In this document: one piece after another, positions 1,556 to 38,680 of the stretch | Numbering within the stretch: position 1 is the stretch's first letter | Layout: every line of letters starts with the position of its first letter | From: Deltaproteobacteria bacterium RIFOXYD12_FULL_56_24 | GTDB taxonomy: Bacteria; Desulfobacterota; Desulfobulbia; Desulfobulbales; Desulfurivibrionaceae | Assembly: GCA_001799285.1 (NCBI GenBank) | Contig: MGTD01000019.1 | Coordinates: forward strand, 1 to 42,722 | DNA: 42,722 bases | Direction: 5' to 3' | Position numbers and translations under genes: made by a program | Notes under the pieces: generated by a model | Told to the model about the DNA's origin: nothing | What the model saw: the letters and a program-made list of their open reading frames with translations, nothing else | Database searches by the model: none

Positions 1556-1620
1556 ACCATCTTTTTTCGTGAAGGTGGTGGAATTCCTTTACTGTTTTCT
1601 TGTAAGGCAATAATCTTTTG

Positions 1621-1675
1621 CACCCAGAGGGTATAAGTTTCGTTTGAGCAGGCAAGCTGCTCAACTCAGCTTTAT
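1621..1675 (-). repeat. Family A palindromic element, copy 1
   Basis: About 55 bp: cacccagagggtataagttt, cgttt, then the palindrome GAGCAG-gcaag-CTGCTC and aactcagcttta. A small ACCC-aga-GGGT hairpin precedes the main palindrome. It ends 26 bases before the topoisomerase-like start, so it forms part of that gene's 5' leader. Confidence 0.8.
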
Positions 1676-1701
1676 CGTTTGAAAATCATGGGGAGAGCAG
1701 C

Positions 1702-8493: not shown

Positions 8494-8550
8494 ATAAAGC
8501 TAAGTTGAGCAGCTTGTCTGCTCAAACGAAACTTATGCCCTCTGGGCGCA
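8494..8550 (+). repeat. Family A palindromic element, copy 2, between dsrA and dsrB
   Basis: ataaagctaagtt, the palindrome GAGCAG-cttgt-CTGCTC, aaacgaaacttatgc and cctctgggcgc, ending directly against the dsrB ribosome binding site (AGGAGGAAT). It makes up nearly half of the 120-bp dsrA-dsrB spacer and would be transcribed in the dsrAB mRNA. Confidence 0.85.
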
Positions 8551-8563
8551 AGGAGGAATTATC

Positions 8564-16027: not shown

Positions 16028-16066
16028 TAGGCCTATTCCCACGATTGGGGATAGGCCTATTTATTT
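16028..16066 (+). terminator. Strong hairpin terminator after the ferredoxin gene
   Basis: TAGGCCTATTCCC (16028-16040) and GGGGATAGGCCTA (16047-16059) form a 13-bp stem with one G-T pair and a 6-base loop, followed by tttattta. It is 130 bases after the ferredoxin stop. Confidence 0.75.
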
Positions 16067-16224
16067 AGGAGCCGTTCAGAAACAACATGGCCATTTATGT
16101 TGCCTTACTGTACGGCTCCTTATGCCATTTGGCTGCGCTAAAACGTCCACGTTATTTTTTACAATGGCTTAGGAGCCGTTCAGAAACAACATGGCCATTT
16201 ATGTTGCCTTACTGTACGGCTCCT
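16067..16224 (+). repeat. Family D paired hairpin repeats, 104-bp period
   Basis: Two 54-bp hairpins (16067-16120 and 16171-16224) with perfect 9-bp ends AGGAGCCGT and ACGGCTCCT. They start exactly 104 bp apart and are identical over the hairpin; the spacer (tatgccatttgg ... atggctt) differs slightly between copies. The same arrangement, inverted, with a different loop, is at 33753-33909. The remainder of the 15900-16319 gap has no gene I can support. Confidence 0.9.
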
Positions 16225-16319
16225 TATGCCATTTGGTTGCCTAAAACGTCCATGTTATTTTTCGATAATGGCTTAGGGGCGGGGCCTGGGTTCTTTATGC
16301 AAGTCCGGAAGGGGGAAGC

Positions 16320-19998: not shown

Positions 19999-20109
19999 TA
20001 AAGCTGAGTTGAGCAGCTTGTCTGCTCCTAAGAAACTTATGCCCGCTGGGTGTAAAGCTGAGTTGAGCAGCTTGTCTGCTCCTACGAAACTTATACCCGA
20101 AGGGTGCAA
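19999..20109 (+). repeat. Two tandem family A elements, copies 3 and 4
   Basis: Two copies in direct order (about 19999-20053 and 20053-20109), each taaagctgagttgagcagc, ttgtctgctcct, a-gaaacttat, then a ccc-gggt hairpin. They differ at a handful of positions. They occupy most of the argS to SPOR gap, followed by GAGGAGG. Confidence 0.85.
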
Positions 20110-20163
20110 AGATCAGCATGAGGAGGCGTTGTCCGGGGATGCCCGGCAATGGAGAATCCGCTT

Positions 20164-21396: not shown

Positions 21397-23934
21397 ATGG
21401 TCGGTTCTGTTTTGAAAATGATTTTTGGCAGCAAGAACGAACGGGTTCTCAAGGCAATTCAGCCCCTGGTGACGGCAATCAACCAGCTGGAGCCCGAGAT
21501 CAAAAAGCTCGATGACGCCTCTCTGGCGGCGAGTACCGGACTCTTCAAGGAGCGGCTCGCTGCCGGGGCAACCCTGGACAGCCTGTTGCCCGAGGCCTTT
21601 GCCGTTTGCCGGGAGGCGGCCTGGCGGGTTCTGGAAATGCGTCATTTCGACGTGCAGCTTATCGGCGGCCTGATCCTCCATCAGGGCAAGATCGCCGAGA
21701 TGAAAACCGGCGAGGGAAAAACCCTGGCCGCCACCCTGGCCGTATATCTCAATGCTCTTACCGGCCGGGGCGTGCATGTGGTCACGGTCAACGATTATCT
21801 GGCCCGGCGCGATGCCGAATGGATGGGCAAACTCTACCGCTTTCTCGGTCTTTCCGTAGGTTCCATCCTGCATGAGATGGATGACGCGGCCCGCCGGGAG
21901 GCCTACGCCTGCGACATTACCTACGGGACTAACAACGAGTTCGGCTTTGATTATCTGCGCGACAACATGAAGTTTGATCTTAAGGAGTTCTGCCAGCGCG
22001 AGTTCCACTTCGCCATTGTCGACGAGGTGGACTCCATCCTGATCGACGAGGCAAGAACTCCGCTGATCATTTCCGGACCGGCTGAGATGTCCACCGAGCT
22101 CTACGAGAAGGCGGATCGGATCATCCCGAACTTCAAGGTCGACGAGCATTACACCATGGATGAGAAGGCCCGGTCGGTTTCACTCACCGAGGATGGAGTG
22201 TCCCTGGGCGAGAAGCTTGTCGGGGTGGACAACCTCTATGATCCCCGGAATATCGAGTGGCTGCATCACTTGAACCAGGCCTTGAAGGCCAATGTACTAT
22301 TCAAGCGGGACGTGGACTATCTGGTGCGCAACGATCAGGTGGTGATCGTGGACGAGTTCACCGGCCGGGCCATGGAGGGCCGCCGTTTCAGCGATGGGCT
22401 CCATCAGGCCCTGGAGGCCAAGGAGCGGGTCAAGGTGGAGCGGGAGAATCAGACCCTGGCCTCGATTACCTTCCAGAACTATTTCCGGATGTATGAAAAA
22501 CTCGGCGGCATGACCGGCACCGCGGACACTGAGGCAGCGGAGTTCAAGAAGATCTACAATCTCGACGTGGTGGTGATTCCCACCCACAACAACATGATCC
22601 GCCGGGATTATGCCGATGTCATCTATAAGAACGCCAAGGCCAAGGATCGCGCCATCATTCGGGAGATCCAGGAGCTGCATAAAAAGGGTCAGCCCGTGCT
22701 GGTCGGCACCATCAGCATTGATGTTTCCGAGAAGATCTCGGCCATGCTGAAAAAAGCGGGGGTGCCCCATGCGGTGCTCAACGCCAAGCAGCATGAGCGG
22801 GAGGCCGAGATCGTTGCCGATGCCGGGCAGAAGGGCAAGGTGACCATCGCCACCAACATGGCGGGGCGCGGCACCGACATAAAGCTGGGCGAAGGGGTGG
22901 TTGAGCTGGGCGGCCTGCATATCCTGGGTACCAGCCGGCACGAGAGCCGACGGATCGACAATCAGCTGCGCGGCCGTTCGGGCCGTCAGGGCGATCCTGG
23001 CTCCTCCCGCTTTTACCTGTCGCTTGAGGACGACCTGTTGCGGATCTTCGGTTCCGACCGCATCTCGGGGATCATGGACAAGCTGGGCATGGAAGAGGAC
23101 GAGCCCATCGAGCACGCCATGATCAGTCGGGCCATCGAAAACGCTCAGCGCAAGGTGGAGGGGCATAACTTCGATATCCGCAAGCACCTGCTCGAATATG
23201 ACGACGTGATGAACAAGCAACGTGAGGTCATCTACCGCCAGCGCCGCGAGGTTCTGGGCACGGACGATGTCCATGAGGTGGTGACCGATATGCTGCCGGA
23301 ACTGGCCGAGATGGTGGCGCATGAATTTGCCGAGTCAAGGGTCTCCTCGGAAGAGTGGGATTGGGCCGGAGTCTCTGAAAGGATGTTTGGACTGTTCGGG
23401 TTTGCCGGGGAGTGGAGTGAAGCGGAAAAAAAGGAGCTTGATCCGGCCGCCTTTGCCGAGCTGATCATCACCGCTCTGACCGACCGCTATGCCCGGCGGG
23501 AGCAGGAGATCGGTGCCGCCAACATGCGCCATCTGGAACGGGTGGTCCTTCTGCAGATCGTTGATCACCACTGGAAAGAGCATCTGCTCAACATGGATCA
23601 CCTCAAGGAAGGCATTGGCCTCCGCGGCTATGGGCAGAAGAATCCTCTGGATGAGTACAAGAAGGAAGGCTTCAACATGTTCGGCGAGATGATCGGGACC
23701 ATGAAGTCCCAGACCGTCAGCACCCTGTTCCGCCTCCAGCTGGTGCGGGACGAGGAGGTGGCCGAGCTGGAGCGCGAGCAGCGGCAGCAGCGGCAGCCCA
23801 TGCAGCTCAGTCGCGGCGTCGATGAGGATGACGAGCACAAGCCGTTTTCCCGCGAGGGAGAGAAGATTGGGCGTAATTCAGACTGCCCCTGCGGCAGTGG
23901 ACAAAAATATAAACGGTGCTGCGGCAAGAAATGA
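21397..23934 (+). CDS. secA: Protein translocase ATPase SecA
   Basis: 845 aa, ATG 21397 after GGAG. SecA drives preproteins through SecYEG. Walker A MKTGEGKT (about 102), DEVD in [15 protein letters not shown], the preprotein cross-linking domain, the motif [32 protein letters not shown], and the helical scaffold. The C-terminus has the zinc-binding [16 protein letters not shown] that binds SecB or ribosomes. Full length for the family. Its stop overlaps the start of the FGE-like gene by ATGA, so the two are coupled. Confidence 0.98.
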
Positions 23935-24794
23935 GAGCTGCGGCGATAGCGGTGGTTCTTGCCTGTCTGGGCCTGGGAGTTGGTTTTGCTTGTCGGCAAG
24001 CAGAGGCTCCGGCATCTGGCTCTGTTTTGACCGATCCGCTTACCGGGATGAAGTTTGTCTATGTCAGGGGCGGCTGTTACCGCATGGGTGACACCTTTAA
24101 CGATCCCGGTTCGCATGGGATGAGTGTGCACGAGGCCTGCGTTGATGATTTTTGGCTGGGCATGTACGAGGTGACCCAGGAGGAATGGGGGCAGGTGATG
24201 AGCAAGGGCGGCAACCCAGCCGCCTTCCAGGACGGGCCGCGTTATCCGGTAGAGAGTGTGAACTGGCAGGACGCCCAGGATTTTATAGCTGAGTTGAACA
24301 GCATGTCTGCTCAAACGAAACCTGGCAGCGGCAGGCAGTATCGGCTGCCAACCGAGGCGGAGTGGGAGTATGCGGCCCGCGGCGGTGGGAAGGAGATCCG
24401 CTTTGGTACCGGAAAAGATACCATTGGGCCGGACGAGGCGAACTTCGATGCCGGGAAAAAACATAAAGAGCTTTATAGCCGCTCTGGTGAAAACAGAAAA
24501 GCACCGCTTGCGGTGGGGAGTTTCCCCCCCAATGGTTTAGGTCTGTACGATATGACCGGCAATGTCTGGGAGTGGTGTTCGGATTGGTATGGCGAGGATT
24601 ACTACACCAGCGCGAGCCGGGACAACCCTAAGGGGCCGGCCTCCGGCACGCATCGCGTCTTTCGCGGCGGCAGCTGGTACTGTAGCCCTGGGCACGTGCG
24701 GGCCTCTTTCCGTGACGGGGGACTGCCGGATCTGCGGGCCGCTCATCTGGGGTTGCGGCTGGTGTTGACTTCGGAGGAGCAGCGGCAGAGGTAG
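23931..24794 (+). CDS. FGE/sulfatase-modifying-factor-like lipoprotein
   Basis: 287 aa from ATG 23931, overlapping the secA stop (ATGA). A hydrophobic N-terminus ending GLGVGFAC suggests a lipoprotein signal, though the lipobox is imperfect. The FGE-sulfatase fold is clear: [83 protein letters not shown] and [20 protein letters not shown]. The two active-site Cys of true formylglycine-generating enzymes are not clearly in place, so a binding or structural role is as likely. A 39-bp family A element is embedded in frame at 24284-24322, coding about [12 protein letters not shown]. Confidence 0.85.
24284..24322 (+). repeat. Family A element inside a coding region, copy 5
   Basis: tatagctgagttgaacagc, atgtctgctcaaacgaaacc: matches intergenic copies at all but about four of 38 positions. 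It is read in an open frame as [12 protein letters not shown] between DAQDFI and the conserved [12 protein letters not shown], a place where FGE proteins usually have a shorter loop. Confidence 0.8.
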
Positions 24795-33636: not shown

Positions 33637-33752
33637 GGTGTTGGCATCCTGATTTGGTGTGCCCACACAATAGGCGACAACCGGGAAAAGGTCAAGCCGG
33701 CGCCGGGCGTGATTTTTTATGGCGGATCAGGTAAAAAGACACGAACGGCATA

Positions 33753-33909
33753 AGGAGCCGTACCGGACTGATTGTGAAAATACATGTTATTTCTAAACGG
33801 CTCCTAAGCCGTCGATAAATGATAACTTGAATTGTTGTGATCCCGCGAACGGCATAAGGAGCCGTACCGGACTGATTGTGAAAATACATGTTATTTCTAA
33901 ACGGCTCCT
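33753..33909 (-). repeat. Family D paired hairpin repeats, 104-bp period
   Basis: Two identical 53-bp hairpins (33753-33805, 33857-33909), AGGAGCCGT... and ...AACGGCTCCT, each preceded by cgaacggcata. Starts are exactly 104 bp apart, the same period as at 16067-16224 but with inverted orientation and a different loop (accggactgattgtgaaaat). They lie between ribF and the tRNA-Leu promoter. Confidence 0.9.
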
Positions 33910-33917
33910 AAATTGTC

Positions 33918-34326: not shown

Positions 34327-35139
34327 ATGCGCTGGTGTTGTAAGCCCATAGCAGCTCTAATAGTGACGATGTTGTTGTTTTGCGTGCCGCTCAGATCGGG
34401 CAGCGCAATCCCTCCTTCTAATTTCCTTTATTTCAATCCTGATTCCATTCACAACAACCTGTCCGGCCTTAAGGAAGCCATGGATGCATTTTTATCCGCA
34501 TCAGGCTTTTCTTTCTCCTTTCAGCCGTTTGCCAGGTTTCACGATTTTGATCGTGAGGTGCGCAACAATGCGTCAGCATTTATCTTTCTGCCGGAATGGT
34601 ATCTCCATCAAGATGGCAACGATAAACGATTCAAGCCGTTTCTGCTTCCGGTCCGTCGTGGGGGCACCACCTATCGCAAGGTATTGCTCGTCGCCGCTGA
34701 TTCGCTTTTGACGGCGGAAAAGCTGGCCGACACTACCATTGCCATGACGCCGGTGGGGCAGGCCGGGCTTGCCGTATTGGATGAGGCTATTTTCAAGCGG
34801 ATCGGCCTCCGCGGCAAAGAGCTTAATTTTATTACCACGGCCAAGGATTCAGATGCCATTTTTGCCCTGGCTTTGCGGCAGGTGAATGCCGCCCTTGTTT
34901 CCCAGGATAATCTTGAGCATGTCGGCAGCATTAACCCGCGTCTTTTTAAAATGGTCAAGGTCCTTGCCGTTTCGAATCCTGTTCCTTTGCCGGTGCTTTG
35001 TTATGTTAATGGCGCGGTTTCGGCCCGCGAAGTCGACAGGATGCGCAAGGTTCTCCTCGCCGGCAAGGACGGTGGCCCGGCAGCACATATTATGGATATG
35101 CTCAAAATTGATACGTGGCGGATTCCCAATGCTGAGTAA
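34327..35139 (+). CDS. PhnD/SsuA-type periplasmic substrate-binding protein
   Basis: 270 aa from ATG 34327. Signal peptide (KPIAALIVTMLLFCVPLRSG). The mature protein has the type 2 periplasmic binding layout of PhnD-like proteins: an early block on GLKEAMDAFLSASGFSFSF, FIFLPEWYLH, TYRKVLLVAADSLLTAEKLA, the hinge TTIAMTPVGQAGLAVL, and DAIFALALRQVNAALVSQDN. Ligand unknown: the family covers phosphonates, thiamine and others, and many members act as sensors for neighbouring kinases. It overlaps the next binding-protein gene by 11 bp. No ABC permease or ATPase is nearby. Confidence 0.8.
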   Translation: MRWCCKPIAALIVTMLLFCVPLRSGSAIPPSNFLYFNPDSIHNNLSGLKEAMDAFLSASGFSFSFQPFARFHDFDREVRNNASAFIFLPEWYLHQDGNDKRFKPFLLPVRRGGTTYRKVLLVAADSLLTAEKLADTTIAMTPVGQAGLAVLDEAIFKRIGLRGKELNFITTAKDSDAIFALALRQVNAALVSQDNLEHVGSINPRLFKMVKVLAVSNPVPLPVLCYVNGAVSAREVDRMRKVLLAGKDGGPAAHIMDMLKIDTWRIPNAE

Positions 35140-36205
35140 ATTGATGAACCAGAGATTGTTTTTTACACCCAGAGGGCATAAGTTTCGTTTGCACCCTAAA
35201 GGGCATAAAATCCGACAAGCTGCTCTCCTCAGCTTTTCACCCAGAGGGTATAAGTTTCGTTTGAGCAGACAAGCTGCTCTACTCAGCTTTATCCTTATGA
35301 TGCTTGGCATTTTGCTTGCCACTCCTGCGCAGGCTGCCGAGCCCAGCGGACCGGTTGCCATTTTGCTTTCAGACAGTGAAAAGGCCTATGAGCAGCAGGT
35401 TGTTATCTTCAGCGAAGAAATTGGCCTGCCGGTGCAGGTTTTCAATCTGCATGGCAGCCTTACCCATGATCCGCTGTTGAAGAAAAAACTTTTTGCGGTA
35501 AAGCCTTCCCTGATTTTTGCCCTGGGCGCCAAAGCCGCTTATGCGGCAAAGCTCTGGACTAAAGATCGTCAGGACATTCCGGTTCTTTTCGCCATGGTGT
35601 TGAACTGGAAGCGTTATAAGCTGCTGCACGACAGCAGCAATATTGCCGGGATTGCCGCTGAAATTTCGCCCGGCGCCCAGTTTATCAATATGACCTTGTT
35701 TTCCCCGGCTATCCGGCGGATTGGCATTATTTACAGCCCTCGTTCTGCAGCAATTCTCACCCAGGCCAAGGAAGCTGCTGCGTTGCTCGGCCTGGAACTG
35801 GTCGCCGAGCCCATCGAACGTTCGGGGGATTTCCAGCGCGTTTTCAAGCGGCTCTCAAGCCAGGTTGATGCCTTTTGGGTGCTGAACGATCCTGTGGTCT
35901 ATACCCTGGAAAATCTGGACTGGCTTGAGAACCGCTGCCTTAAGGATAAGCTTCTCTGTGTCGGCCAGAGCCAGAATCTGGCCAAAATGGGCCTGGCGCT
36001 TACCATCAATCCGGATGTTCTGCAGATTGGCGCCCAGGCTGCGGCCATGGCCCGCAACATCCTGTTGCATGGGCAGAAGCCCGTGGTAATCGGGGCGATG
36101 GAACCCATCGGCACCCAGCTTTTCGTCAATATTAAGACCGCGGAACGCATAGATCTGTCTATCACCCCCGAGGCCCTGAATATAGCTACTTCCATTATTC
36201 GGTGA
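35129..36205 (+). CDS. ABC_sub_bind-type substrate-binding protein with repeat-invaded signal peptide
   Basis: 358 aa from ATG 35129; ATG 35144 (MNQRLFF) is an alternative. The mature part (AAEPSGPVAILLSDSEKAYE onward) is a type 1 binding fold of the PF04392 kind: PSLIFALGAKAAYAAK, IPVLFAMVLNWKRYKL, AEISPGAQFINMTLF, IRRIGIIYSPRSAA, VDAFWVLNDPVVYTLE and QIGAQAAAMARNIL. The N-terminus is odd. MNQRLFF and ILMMLGILLATPAQA, together a normal signal peptide, are split by 42 residues coded by three partial family A elements (126 bp, in frame), giving a strongly basic region with two RQAALLSF copies. Export may be altered. Coupled to the PhnD-like gene upstream and the TonB receptor 50 bp downstream. 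Confidence 0.85.
   Translation: MLSKLMNQRLFFTPRGHKFRLHPKGHKIRQAALLSFSPRGYKFRLSRQAALLSFILMMLGILLATPAQAAEPSGPVAILLSDSEKAYEQQVVIFSEEIGLPVQVFNLHGSLTHDPLLKKKLFAVKPSLIFALGAKAAYAAKLWTKDRQDIPVLFAMVLNWKRYKLLHDSSNIAGIAAEISPGAQFINMTLFSPAIRRIGIIYSPRSAAILTQAKEAAALLGLELVAEPIERSGDFQRVFKRLSSQVDAFWVLNDPVVYTLENLDWLENRCLKDKLLCVGQSQNLAKMGLALTINPDVLQIGAQAAAMARNILLHGQKPVVIGAMEPIGTQLFVNIKTAERIDLSITPEALNIATSIIR
35165..35291 (-). repeat. Family A elements inserted in frame in a signal peptide, copies 6-8
   Basis: cacccagagggcataagttt then cgttt (partial), a diverged copy gcaccctaaagggcataaaa to agctttt, and a full copy cacccagagggtataagttt, cgttt, GAGCAGacaagCTGCTC, tactcagcttta (35238-35291). Total insert is 126 bp, a multiple of three, with no stop in the reading frame of the host gene. 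Confidence 0.85.
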
Positions 36206-36254
36206 GATGATCAGGCTTTTTCATCTTTTTCAATGGCGGTATGGAGGAAATGGG

Positions 36255-38372
36255 ATGCGTACAAAACGAGCTCTTGTAGCAGCGCTTTTGTCTTGTTTGT
36301 CCTGCTTTACCGTGGCCAGGGCTGCGGAGCCCCTCCCTGCGAGTGCCGACCCGGACGAGGCTACCTTTGCCGAGATGTTCGGCCGGGGGCCGCAGGAGGA
36401 GGATGTCTACCGCACCGACCGGCTGCTGCTCACCGCCACCGGCTCGCTTAAGCCGGTCCATCTGGCTCCCTCGGTGGCCTCGGTCATCACCGCCGAGGAT
36501 ATCAAAGGGTTGGGGGCCACTACTCTGGACGAGGTGCTGGAGTCGGTGCCGGGGTTGCATGTGGAGCCGTCCGGCATTGCTTATTTCTCCTCAATCTGGT
36601 CGATTCGCGGGGTACATACCAGCACCAATCCCCAGACCCTGCTGTTGATCAACGGGGTGCCTTTTATTTCCAATTATCAGGGCAGCCGTTATGTCGGTTA
36701 TCAGATGCCGGTGGCGATGATCTCGCGGGTTGAGGTGGTGCGGGGTCCTGGTTCGGCCCTCCATGGCGCCGATGCCTTTGCCGGGACGGTCAACGTCATC
36801 ACCAAGGACAACTTCGAGATCGACGGTACCCAGGCCGGGGCGCGCTACGGCTCTTTTGACAGCTCCGACCTCTGGGCCCAGCATGGCGGGCAGTACAATG
36901 GCTGGGATGTGGCCTTCGGGGTGGAGCACCGCAAGACCAGTGGCGACAAAGGCAGGATCATCGAGCGGGATTATCTCCACGCCTTCGGGGCGGGAGCACT
37001 CTCCAATGCTCCCGGCTATATCGATACCTGGAACGAACAGCTCGATACCCACCTCAACCTGCGTAAAGACAACTGGACCCTGCATCTCTATGGCACCCTG
37101 CAGGACTCCAGTCTGGGAGCCGGGATATCCCAGGCCATCACCTATGGCAACGATATCGACACTAAATCCCTGCTTGCTGATCTGACCTGGCACAACGACA
37201 AGCTGGTGGAAAACTGGGAGCTGGAGAGCCGGATCTACTACTCCTATATTAATGCGGATTCCTTTTTGCAATTCTATCCGCAAGGCGTTCCCAATTTTTT
37301 ACTTGGTAATCCAATCTATACCGCTCAGGACGGTGGCATCGAGGCCGGCGGATTGTACAAGGGCTTTCGTGATCACCGGCTCCGCATCGGCGTCGGCGCG
37401 AAATCCTACGATCTTGGCCGGGACCAGTACAAGAATTTCGCGGCGCCTGGCGCCACCAGCCCTCCCGGACCCATGGTGCATGTGACCGATCCGGCCTATA
37501 TCTACATCGACGAGGCGAGCCGGACCCTGTGGTACGGCCTGGTTCAGGATGAGTGGCAACTGGCCCCTACCTGGACCCTCACCGTTGGGGTGCGTTATGA
37601 CGAATACTCCGACTTCGGCTCCACCGTCAACCCCAGGGCGGCCCTGGTCTGGGAGACCCGCTATGACCTGACCACCAAGCTGATGTATGGCCAGGCCTTC
37701 CGCGCGCCCTCCTTCGGCGAACAGTACGTCAAGAACAACCTGCAAGTTGAGGGAAACCCACGCCTTACCCCGGAGGAGATCGAAACCATCGAACTGGCCT
37801 TCGACTATCAGCCGACCAAGAACCTGCGTCTGATTCTCAGCCTGTTCAACTACGAGGCCACAGACCTTGTTGAAATTATCGGAGCATCGTTTCCTCAGGC
37901 ATATACCAACTACGGCGAACAGGAGGGGAGGGGTTTCGAGGTAGAGATGGACTGGCGGCTGCACCAGGATTTTAGACTTCGCTCCAACTTGGCCTATCAA
38001 CGCTCGATCAACAAGAAACTGGATGACGCAGTGGTGCCGGACGCCCCGGAGATGCAGTTTTACCTGAACCCCAGTTGGACCTTCCTGCCGGATTGGACCT
38101 TCGATGGCCAGTTCTACTGGATCGGCGATCGCCACAGGGCCAAGGGCGACCCCCGGGGAGACATTGGCGACTATGAGGTAGTCAACCTGCTGGTCCGGCG
38201 CAAAAATATCATCAACCACTTGGAGGCGGCAGTGGGAATTCGCAATCTTTTCGACGAAGTCGGCCGCATCCCCAGCCCCTTTGCGGCCGCAGCCCCTGAG
38301 GGTGCCTTTATCCCCAACGACTATCCTCTCGAAGGACGTTCAATCTTTGCCCAGATAAGCGGCCATTTTTGA
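36255..38372 (+). CDS. TonB-dependent outer-membrane receptor
   Basis: 705 aa. ATG 36255 has GGAGGAAA 6 bases before; an ATG at 36207 would spoil the signal peptide (MRTKRALVAALLSCLSCFTV ending ARA). The plug domain spans about 55-170: LAPSVASVITAEDIKGLGAT, LDEVLESVPGLHVEP, WSIRGVHTSTNPQTLLLING, ISRVEVVRGPGSALHGADAF and AGTVNVITK. The barrel follows and ends in IFAQISGHF with C-terminal Phe, as outer-membrane barrels do. TATEDYLE-like Ton box not clear. Substrate unknown: siderophore, cobalamin or another scarce compound. It sits after two binding proteins and before two histidine kinases, all on the same strand. Confidence 0.94.
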   Translation: MRTKRALVAALLSCLSCFTVARAAEPLPASADPDEATFAEMFGRGPQEEDVYRTDRLLLTATGSLKPVHLAPSVASVITAEDIKGLGATTLDEVLESVPGLHVEPSGIAYFSSIWSIRGVHTSTNPQTLLLINGVPFISNYQGSRYVGYQMPVAMISRVEVVRGPGSALHGADAFAGTVNVITKDNFEIDGTQAGARYGSFDSSDLWAQHGGQYNGWDVAFGVEHRKTSGDKGRIIERDYLHAFGAGALSNAPGYIDTWNEQLDTHLNLRKDNWTLHLYGTLQDSSLGAGISQAITYGNDIDTKSLLADLTWHNDKLVENWELESRIYYSYINADSFLQFYPQGVPNFLLGNPIYTAQDGGIEAGGLYKGFRDHRLRIGVGAKSYDLGRDQYKNFAAPGATSPPGPMVHVTDPAYIYIDEASRTLWYGLVQDEWQLAPTWTLTVGVRYDEYSDFGSTVNPRAALVWETRYDLTTKLMYGQAFRAPSFGEQYVKNNLQVEGNPRLTPEEIETIELAFDYQPTKNLRLILSLFNYEATDLVEIIGASFPQAYTNYGEQEGRGFEVEMDWRLHQDFRLRSNLAYQRSINKKLDDAVVPDAPEMQFYLNPSWTFLPDWTFDGQFYWIGDRHRAKGDPRGDIGDYEVVNLLVRRKNIINHLEAAVGIRNLFDEVGRIPSPFAAAAPEGAFIPNDYPLEGRSIFAQISGHF

Positions 38373-38505: not shown

Positions 38506-38600
38506 TTTGTTGAAATCGTAAAAAGCCACGATTACAACGGGTATTAATGTAACTGCTTGATTTAGCGTGGTGGGCCTGTGAGCTTTTCAGACTGTTACGA
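38506..38600 (+). repeat. Family B intergenic repeat, copy 3
   Basis: tttgttgaaatcgtaaaaag, ccacgattacaacggg, ttgattt, gggcctgtgagc and gttacgag: same order and spacing as copies 1 and 2. Nested in C9. Confidence 0.7.
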
Positions 38601-38605
38601 GTTCA

Positions 38606-38646
38606 TTGAGTTTCGTTTGAGCAGACAAGCTGCTCAACTCAGCTAA
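38606..38646 (-). repeat. Family A palindromic element, copy 9 (partial)
   Basis: ttgagtttcgttt, GAGCAGacaagCTGCTC, aactcagcta. Lacks the cacccagagggtata part, but a separated fragment of that part (cacccttcgggtataagttt) occurs on the other side of family B copy 3, as if B had inserted into A. Confidence 0.75.
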
Positions 38647-38680
38647 AAGCGGCCACAGGGCACCACATCTCACGGAAATT

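Follow-up and report, generated by a model that had tools for sequence, protein, structure and literature searches.

A short multi-copy repeat lies in frame within the signal peptide of an ABC_sub_bind transport protein in a deltaproteobacterial genome

In the current study, a short, many-copy repeat (here termed family A) was confirmed to sit in frame within the signal peptide of an ABC_sub_bind transport protein encoded in the window, i.e. the 42,722-nucleotide stretch of DNA that was analysed, which is contig C19 of the 3.04-Mb draft genome (67 contigs; G000) of Deltaproteobacteria bacterium RIFOXYD12_FULL_56_24. The reading that we favour, with a probability of approximately 0.58, is that a mobile, REP/RPE-like repeat of this family entered the signal peptide recently, as a composite of two units placed between its n- and h-regions, and that the extended leader is translated by read-through, exported and cleaved. 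The target is a genuine example of selfish DNA that a cell can translate, though one with precedents, and it brings a relative of Desulfobulbaceae at genus level into the range of such repeats.

The insert occupies positions 35165-35290 (126 bp, 42 codons) and is composed of two family A units of 72 and 54 bp. The initial annotation had described it, from the letters of the window, as an in-frame, stop-free stretch of family A splitting a signal peptide, with a very basic extension carrying two RQAALLSF repeats; its sequence, its frame and the nature of the extension were all upheld, both units ending in RQAALLSF. The open frame runs from ATG 35129 to 36205 and encodes MLSKLMNQRLFF, the 42 inserted residues, ILMMLGILLATPAQA and the ABC_sub_bind domain, in that order (Table 1). 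This ATG overlaps the stop codon of the upstream gene and is present in all six genus members compared (the window and five orthologues), while a second candidate start, ATG 35144 (MNQRLFF), is present in five of the six. The gene order at 34327-38372 is Phosphonate-bd, ABC_sub_bind, TonB-dependent receptor.

Based on hydropathy and alignment, the features of a Sec (type I) signal peptide are present, namely a charged n-region, a hydrophobic core and an AxA cleavage motif; the difference from such a signal lies in the length of the leader, which in its long form has 69 residues, approximately 48 of them, including 12 K/R, preceding the core. An n-region of this length and charge is unusual for a Sec signal. 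The maximum Kyte-Doolittle value over 12 residues is 2.78 with the insert and 3.08 when the flanks are joined, the five same-genus orthologues ranging over 2.51-3.05, and this closeness to the orthologues is due to RQAALLSF of unit 2 abutting the host residues ILMMLGILL. Initiation at ATG 35297 would leave 13 residues before the cut, with a best hydropathy window of 1.42. The RNA structure of the start region was no stronger than that of shuffled sequences (z -0.25).

Table 1. Coordinates of the target gene, its insert and the other family A copies in the window
Feature	Position	Strand	Remarks
Upstream gene, Phosphonate-bd domain (PF12974)	34327..35139	+	Stop overlaps ATG 35129
Host 5' coding segment	35129..35164	+	Codes MLSKLMNQRLFF; original n-region and first part of h-region
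Family A unit 1	35165..35236	+	72 bp, 24 codons; subfamily with internal duplicate CACCCTAAAGGGCATAAAATCC
Family A unit 2	35237..35290	+	54 bp, 18 codons; standard form, two small hairpins
In-frame TTG within unit 2	35261..35263	+	Candidate restart giving MSRQAALLSFILMMLGILLATPAQA; AGAGGG 12 nt upstream, by eye, long spacing
Host 3' signal-peptide part	35291..35335	+	ILMMLGILLATPAQA; aligned with orthologue h/c-regions; predicted cleavage after AQA, by eye; then AEPSGP
Mature ABC_sub_bind protein and stop	35336..36205	+	PF04392, E 1.5e-23
Partial, diverged family A copy	24284..24349	-	In frame in FGE-sulfatase domain gene (23913-24791); putative insertion
Family A copy outside scored gene frame	1617..1679	+	Reference unit; DNA fold z -2.73
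Further family A copy	8495..8560	-	
Tandem pair of family A units	19999..20118	-	Period 54
Family A right half	38590..38652	+	Fused to other repeat sequence

The assignment of the insert to family A is far beyond chance, as the core GAGCAGACAAGCTGCTCNACTCAGCT occurs 151 times in G000 at up to three mismatches and the reversed-pattern control not at all. Matches to family A were found in 15 of 17 genus genomes, with a very uneven copy number that ranges from 0 to 101 exact cores. The standard unit, as read from the sequence, has a single stop-free frame per strand (18 residues one way and 19 the other), and the unit lengths of 54 and 72 bp are both multiples of three. The insert in the signal peptide is read in the single frame that is open on its strand. 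Two standard units (unit 2 of the insert and the reference unit) fold as DNA into two separate small hairpins, one with 4 bp and the other with 6-8 bp, rather than a single palindrome, with z values of -2.40 and -2.73, respectively; unit 1 gives a z of -0.63, no better than shuffles, and the insert as a whole, at -1.29, lacks clear structure too. With respect to the hallmarks of a MITE (terminal inverted repeats and target duplication), the ends of the unit (CACCC.. and ..CAGCTTT) are, by eye, not inverted repeats of each other, and TTT or AAA flanks both sides at several sites, which may reflect duplication or a site preference. Within G000, 116 copies were examined, the window having been supplemented with 80 stretches (278,759 bases) selected from the listed matches; 112 of these copies are among the 151, of which the remaining 39 lie outside the sample, such that rates are rough. 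The coding score was trained on the same stretches.

Unit 1 belongs to a subfamily with representatives elsewhere in the genome on contigs C8, C11, C31 and C35, and of the four subfamily copies compared with it the closest, C35:12527, shows 3 differences over the 72 positions, with the Gln-to-Leu codon accounting for two. For unit 2, the closest of 71 ungapped copies is C31:12236, with 2 mismatches over the 54 positions, and a comparable two-unit arrangement is present at C8:3854-3985 (89% over 132 bp). Parts of the insert match other family A copies in G000 at 96-97% identity, and the insertion therefore looks recent.

The insert is absent from the orthologues examined. Scanning the region between 300 bases upstream and 150 bases downstream of the point where homology starts recovered both units at the window's own locus, the control, and no family A module in any of 13 orthologues (five same-genus and eight same-order). 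Nor was one found near the match start in 26 named GTDB loci, a set that overlaps the 13, at least five named loci looking by their N-termini like the five same-genus species. The gap that was anticipated for an orthologue alignment is indeed present, at approximately 42 residues, and no examined orthologue, distant or close, carries the same extension, which the initial annotation had named as grounds for refutation. The five same-genus orthologues share 76-79% identity over the mature part, and the remaining genus genomes contain distant relatives of the target protein only; named relatives with the gene comprise Desulfurivibrio, Desulfobulbaceae, other deltaproteobacterial assemblies and a few more distant ones, most of them metagenome-assembled. 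The mature part is under normal constraint, with dN/dS values of 0.14-0.18 between the window and six orthologues and 0.11-0.22 among the others, although values this low carry little information on the period that follows a recent insertion.

Both units share a further peculiarity. The codon preceding LSF is CAA (Gln) in 108 of the 116 copies, and it is CTC in unit 1 and CTA in unit 2, both encoding Leu. Across the 17 genomes, the exact 20-base core is present with the T variant in two copies, both of them in the insert, and without it in 300 (101 in G000 and 199 in the other 16 genomes). The Leu-codon changes are the sole private ones relative to the compared copies, in which the other differing bases are also seen. 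This pair of changes hints at selection on a hydrophobic translated tail, or at homogenisation, and it is equally possible that one mutation spread between the units. Resetting the Leu of unit 2 to Gln leaves the best hydropathy window at 2.78, and a gain in core strength is therefore unsupported; that unit 1 lies outside the hydrophobic core is also a point against selection.

In the favoured reading, a family A element would insert at an A/T-rich site (judged by eye), insertions into genes would survive where they fall in an open frame at a tolerant place, and tandem growth by 54- or 72-bp units would preserve the frame. Frame keeping would thus follow from the anatomy of the family (54/72-bp units with one open frame per strand) together with selection against other genic insertions. 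The conserved ATG would start translation and the ribosome would read through the insert to produce the 69-residue leader with its very basic n-region. In this leader, the element tail R-QAALLSF would bring a positive charge and form the opening portion of a rebuilt hydrophobic core, with ILMMLGILL as its continuation. Cleavage by signal peptidase I between AQA and AEP would then discard the whole insert and so leave the mature transport protein unchanged; the signal peptide would tolerate the insertion because the insert is removed along with it.

The main rival places a restart at TTG 35261, in which case the upstream ATGs would yield nothing useful and the working signal peptide would be MSRQAALLSFILMMLGILLATPAQA, part element and part host; under this and the read-through account alike, the signal peptide is an element/host chimera. 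We regard a restart as possible, albeit clearly less probable than read-through from the conserved ATG. PMC3733652 warns that many N-terminal REPs may be extragenic, with a downstream translation start being possible. The 25-residue product of the TTG has a plausible n/h/c layout and a maximum hydropathy of 2.78, and an AGAGGG motif precedes the codon at 12 nt (by eye). Against this, the original ATG 35129, shared by all six genus members, has been preserved with no interruption of the frame that follows it, AGAGGG lies rather far from the TTG for a ribosome site, TTG is a weaker start codon, and the Leu change is also present in unit 1, where a restart would not need it.

Damage to the gene, whereby a long basic leader would block or lower export and the gene would be heading towards a pseudogene in this lineage, is unlikely: while the insert does part the charged n-region from the h-region and none of the examined orthologues keeps it, there is no stop or frameshift in the gene, the dN/dS of the mature part is like that of other pairs and the hydrophobic core scores much as it does in the orthologues. 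An assembly artefact, in which family A repeats were mis-joined into the gene, might be suspected in view of the 67-contig draft, the mostly metagenome-assembled status of the named relatives and the high copy number of the repeat, but it is very improbable given that, of the 302 exact-core copies counted in the genus, none outside the insert has the Leu codons and that an exact 42-codon fit would be unlikely for a mis-join. Sequencing error is likewise implausible, because the insert is a member of the family with private variants. The least credible account, for which nothing was found in favour, is that of an ancestral extension lost in other species, considering its absence from 13 of 13 orthologues over two taxonomic tiers and the apparent recency of the insertion indicated by the 96-97% identity to other copies.

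The target does not stand alone, as family A also lies in frame in several other genes of G000: approximately 11 of the 116 copies, in about ten genes, with evidence of differing strength. The best supported sites are those in HypF, in an acyl-CoA synthetase and at the N-termini of RmlB, Ddl and LpxI; in the latter three the start codon lies right before the element and the family models begin right after it. Among the acyl-CoA synthetases, that of G000 alone carries the element, which is missing from 12 of 12 orthologues compared with it. The count also takes in weaker cases, namely a small protein with no match to any family, the FGE-sulfatase gene in the window, and an Ogt-like methyltransferase (C67, near 5358) with a long family A composite in frame between two domains, which adds an estimated 55-60 residues and is placed between a sub-threshold PF02870 match and PF01035.

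In HypF, a 54-bp unit is present at one site in five of 16 species, and the other 11 are empty. Four of the alleles contain 54 bp and one, in genus genome G013, contains 54+72 bp, a total of 126 bp as in the target, and all five stay open. No purifying selection on the element codons was detected in the four 54-bp alleles (pooled pN 0.099, pS 0.037; G013 left out). The 16 species represent a natural series of empty, one-unit and two-unit alleles in which tolerance of the element can be followed. Element-peptide matches were also noted in long open frames of up to 781 aa in genus genome G009 and 818 aa in G013, the latter being HypF, and G009:C55 (781 aa) and G013:C10 (556 aa) are possible further in-gene copies; HypF and one frame of G009:C17 were followed further. 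Of the 35 copies in 20 stretches of G009, by eye, one is a likely fusion at a C-terminus and none is clearly internal to a gene, which speaks against generality.

A second leader also contains the repeat. In a prepilin-type protein (TIGR02532, 21.6 bits against a cut-off of 16.3, matching from residue 54), a family A copy (C33, ~35469) sits between the cleavage motif and a GTG that matches the ATG start of an 87%-identical G013 protein; an ATG inside the copy could act as an alternative start. This closest relative has the short leader MKG, and all ten relatives examined lack the insert. The inserts of the target, the prepilin leader and the acyl-CoA synthetase are thus absent from all relatives compared, and that of HypF from 11 of 16, each at a precise site. 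A rule is suggested whereby an insertion into a cleaved leader would be cheap, as it does not persist in the mature protein. A doubtful extension of it, which we advance tentatively, is that cleavable leaders are safe landing sites for a translated repeat since peptidases erase it from the final protein, that here the repeat was adapted through the Gln-to-Leu change in both units, giving a more hydrophobic tail next to the part-element, part-host core, and that the prepilin leader is an independent case. For annotation, unusually long basic N-termini may be repeat-derived.

Several in-gene candidates (a heptosyltransferase on C60, a radical SAM protein on C65, a NosL-like protein at C43:1070, an S4 protein on C48, an ExbD-like protein on C8, and those on C35 and C41) were dropped, as translation could plausibly begin beyond the element; several of the names were assigned by eye. 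A scan for coding-like flanks on both sides returned 14 of the 116 copies, and the ten inspected by eye were mostly operon junctions and opposite-strand shadows. At C18:48404, C19:8498 and C64:4239, frames that are weakly coding-like on both sides have a stop inside the element and may represent broken genes. At the operon junctions of an acyltransferase (LpxA-like) with LpxI and of RmlD with RmlB, the TAA of the upstream gene lies at the element edge and the downstream gene reads the element in frame; this arrangement resembles descriptions of the mycobacterial MIRUs.

Genic insertions had been considered in the initial annotation to be known mainly from Rickettsia, which is not upheld in the form given: PMC3733652 places REPs inside ORFs of several genera, with clusters encoding up to 82 aa, and cites R. 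conorii proteins with N-terminal RPE-1 as expressed in vivo, while palindromic coding repeats of Wolbachia and Methanocaldococcus are cited in PMC2996958. A case within an export signal had been deemed unusual; to the prepilin leader described above can be added a Yersinia repeat which PMC2759123 and PMC2229807 report as residues 1-30 of a predicted signal peptide, the contribution of a repeat to a signal peptide having been proposed there previously (PMC2759123). That repeat, YAPL/RU-2 in YPO1552, differs in forming the start of its ORF, whereas family A lies inside a signal peptide whose orthologues do without it.

Family A resembles the RPEs in being a short repeat that is both intergenic and in frame in conserved genes, translated and tolerated, as these are portrayed in PMC10969869 and PMC2229807. 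It differs in lineage, its named relatives being Desulfobulbaceae and similar, and in its 54- or 72-bp units with two small hairpins, RPEs being approximately 150 bp long. The whole RPE forms a single palindrome. The NCBIfam library includes RPE models, and no RPE model was among the NCBIfam matches listed (E up to 10) for eight proteins (the best 25 matches for three of them, and the complete list for the target); by this route, RPE membership found no support. With the GTAG/CGTC intragenic REPs, as set out in PMC3733652, the family shares a high copy number, small hairpins, tandem units and ORF copies often near the N-terminus, and it differs in that, among the 116 copies, just 8 have GTAG ahead of the hairpin (59 have GTTT). 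A link to RAYTs was rejected, as the 1.5-kb flanks of the three Y1_Tnp (PF01797) matches in G000 contain no family A module, and no mobiliser is therefore named. The Wolbachia, Methanocaldococcus and PARCEL repeats are similarly palindromes translated inside genes, and are set beside family A by description only, following PMC2996958. Family A works like RPEs and intragenic REPs, without being an established member of either group. Neither family A nor protein-coding palindromes of Desulfobulbaceae were found among the literature matches listed, one of the searches covering titles and the starts of abstracts. As far as these searches show, what is new comprises the family and its genus, an existing signal peptide that is interrupted here and empty in the orthologues, and the series of HypF alleles across several species.

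The window also contains other short repeats, including near-perfect pairs spaced 104 bp at 16065-16240 and 33742-33911 (families D11 and D12), which by eye share GGAGCCGT/ACGGCTCC arms, and long direct repeats with spacings of 195 and 75 bp at positions 1-736 (family D1).
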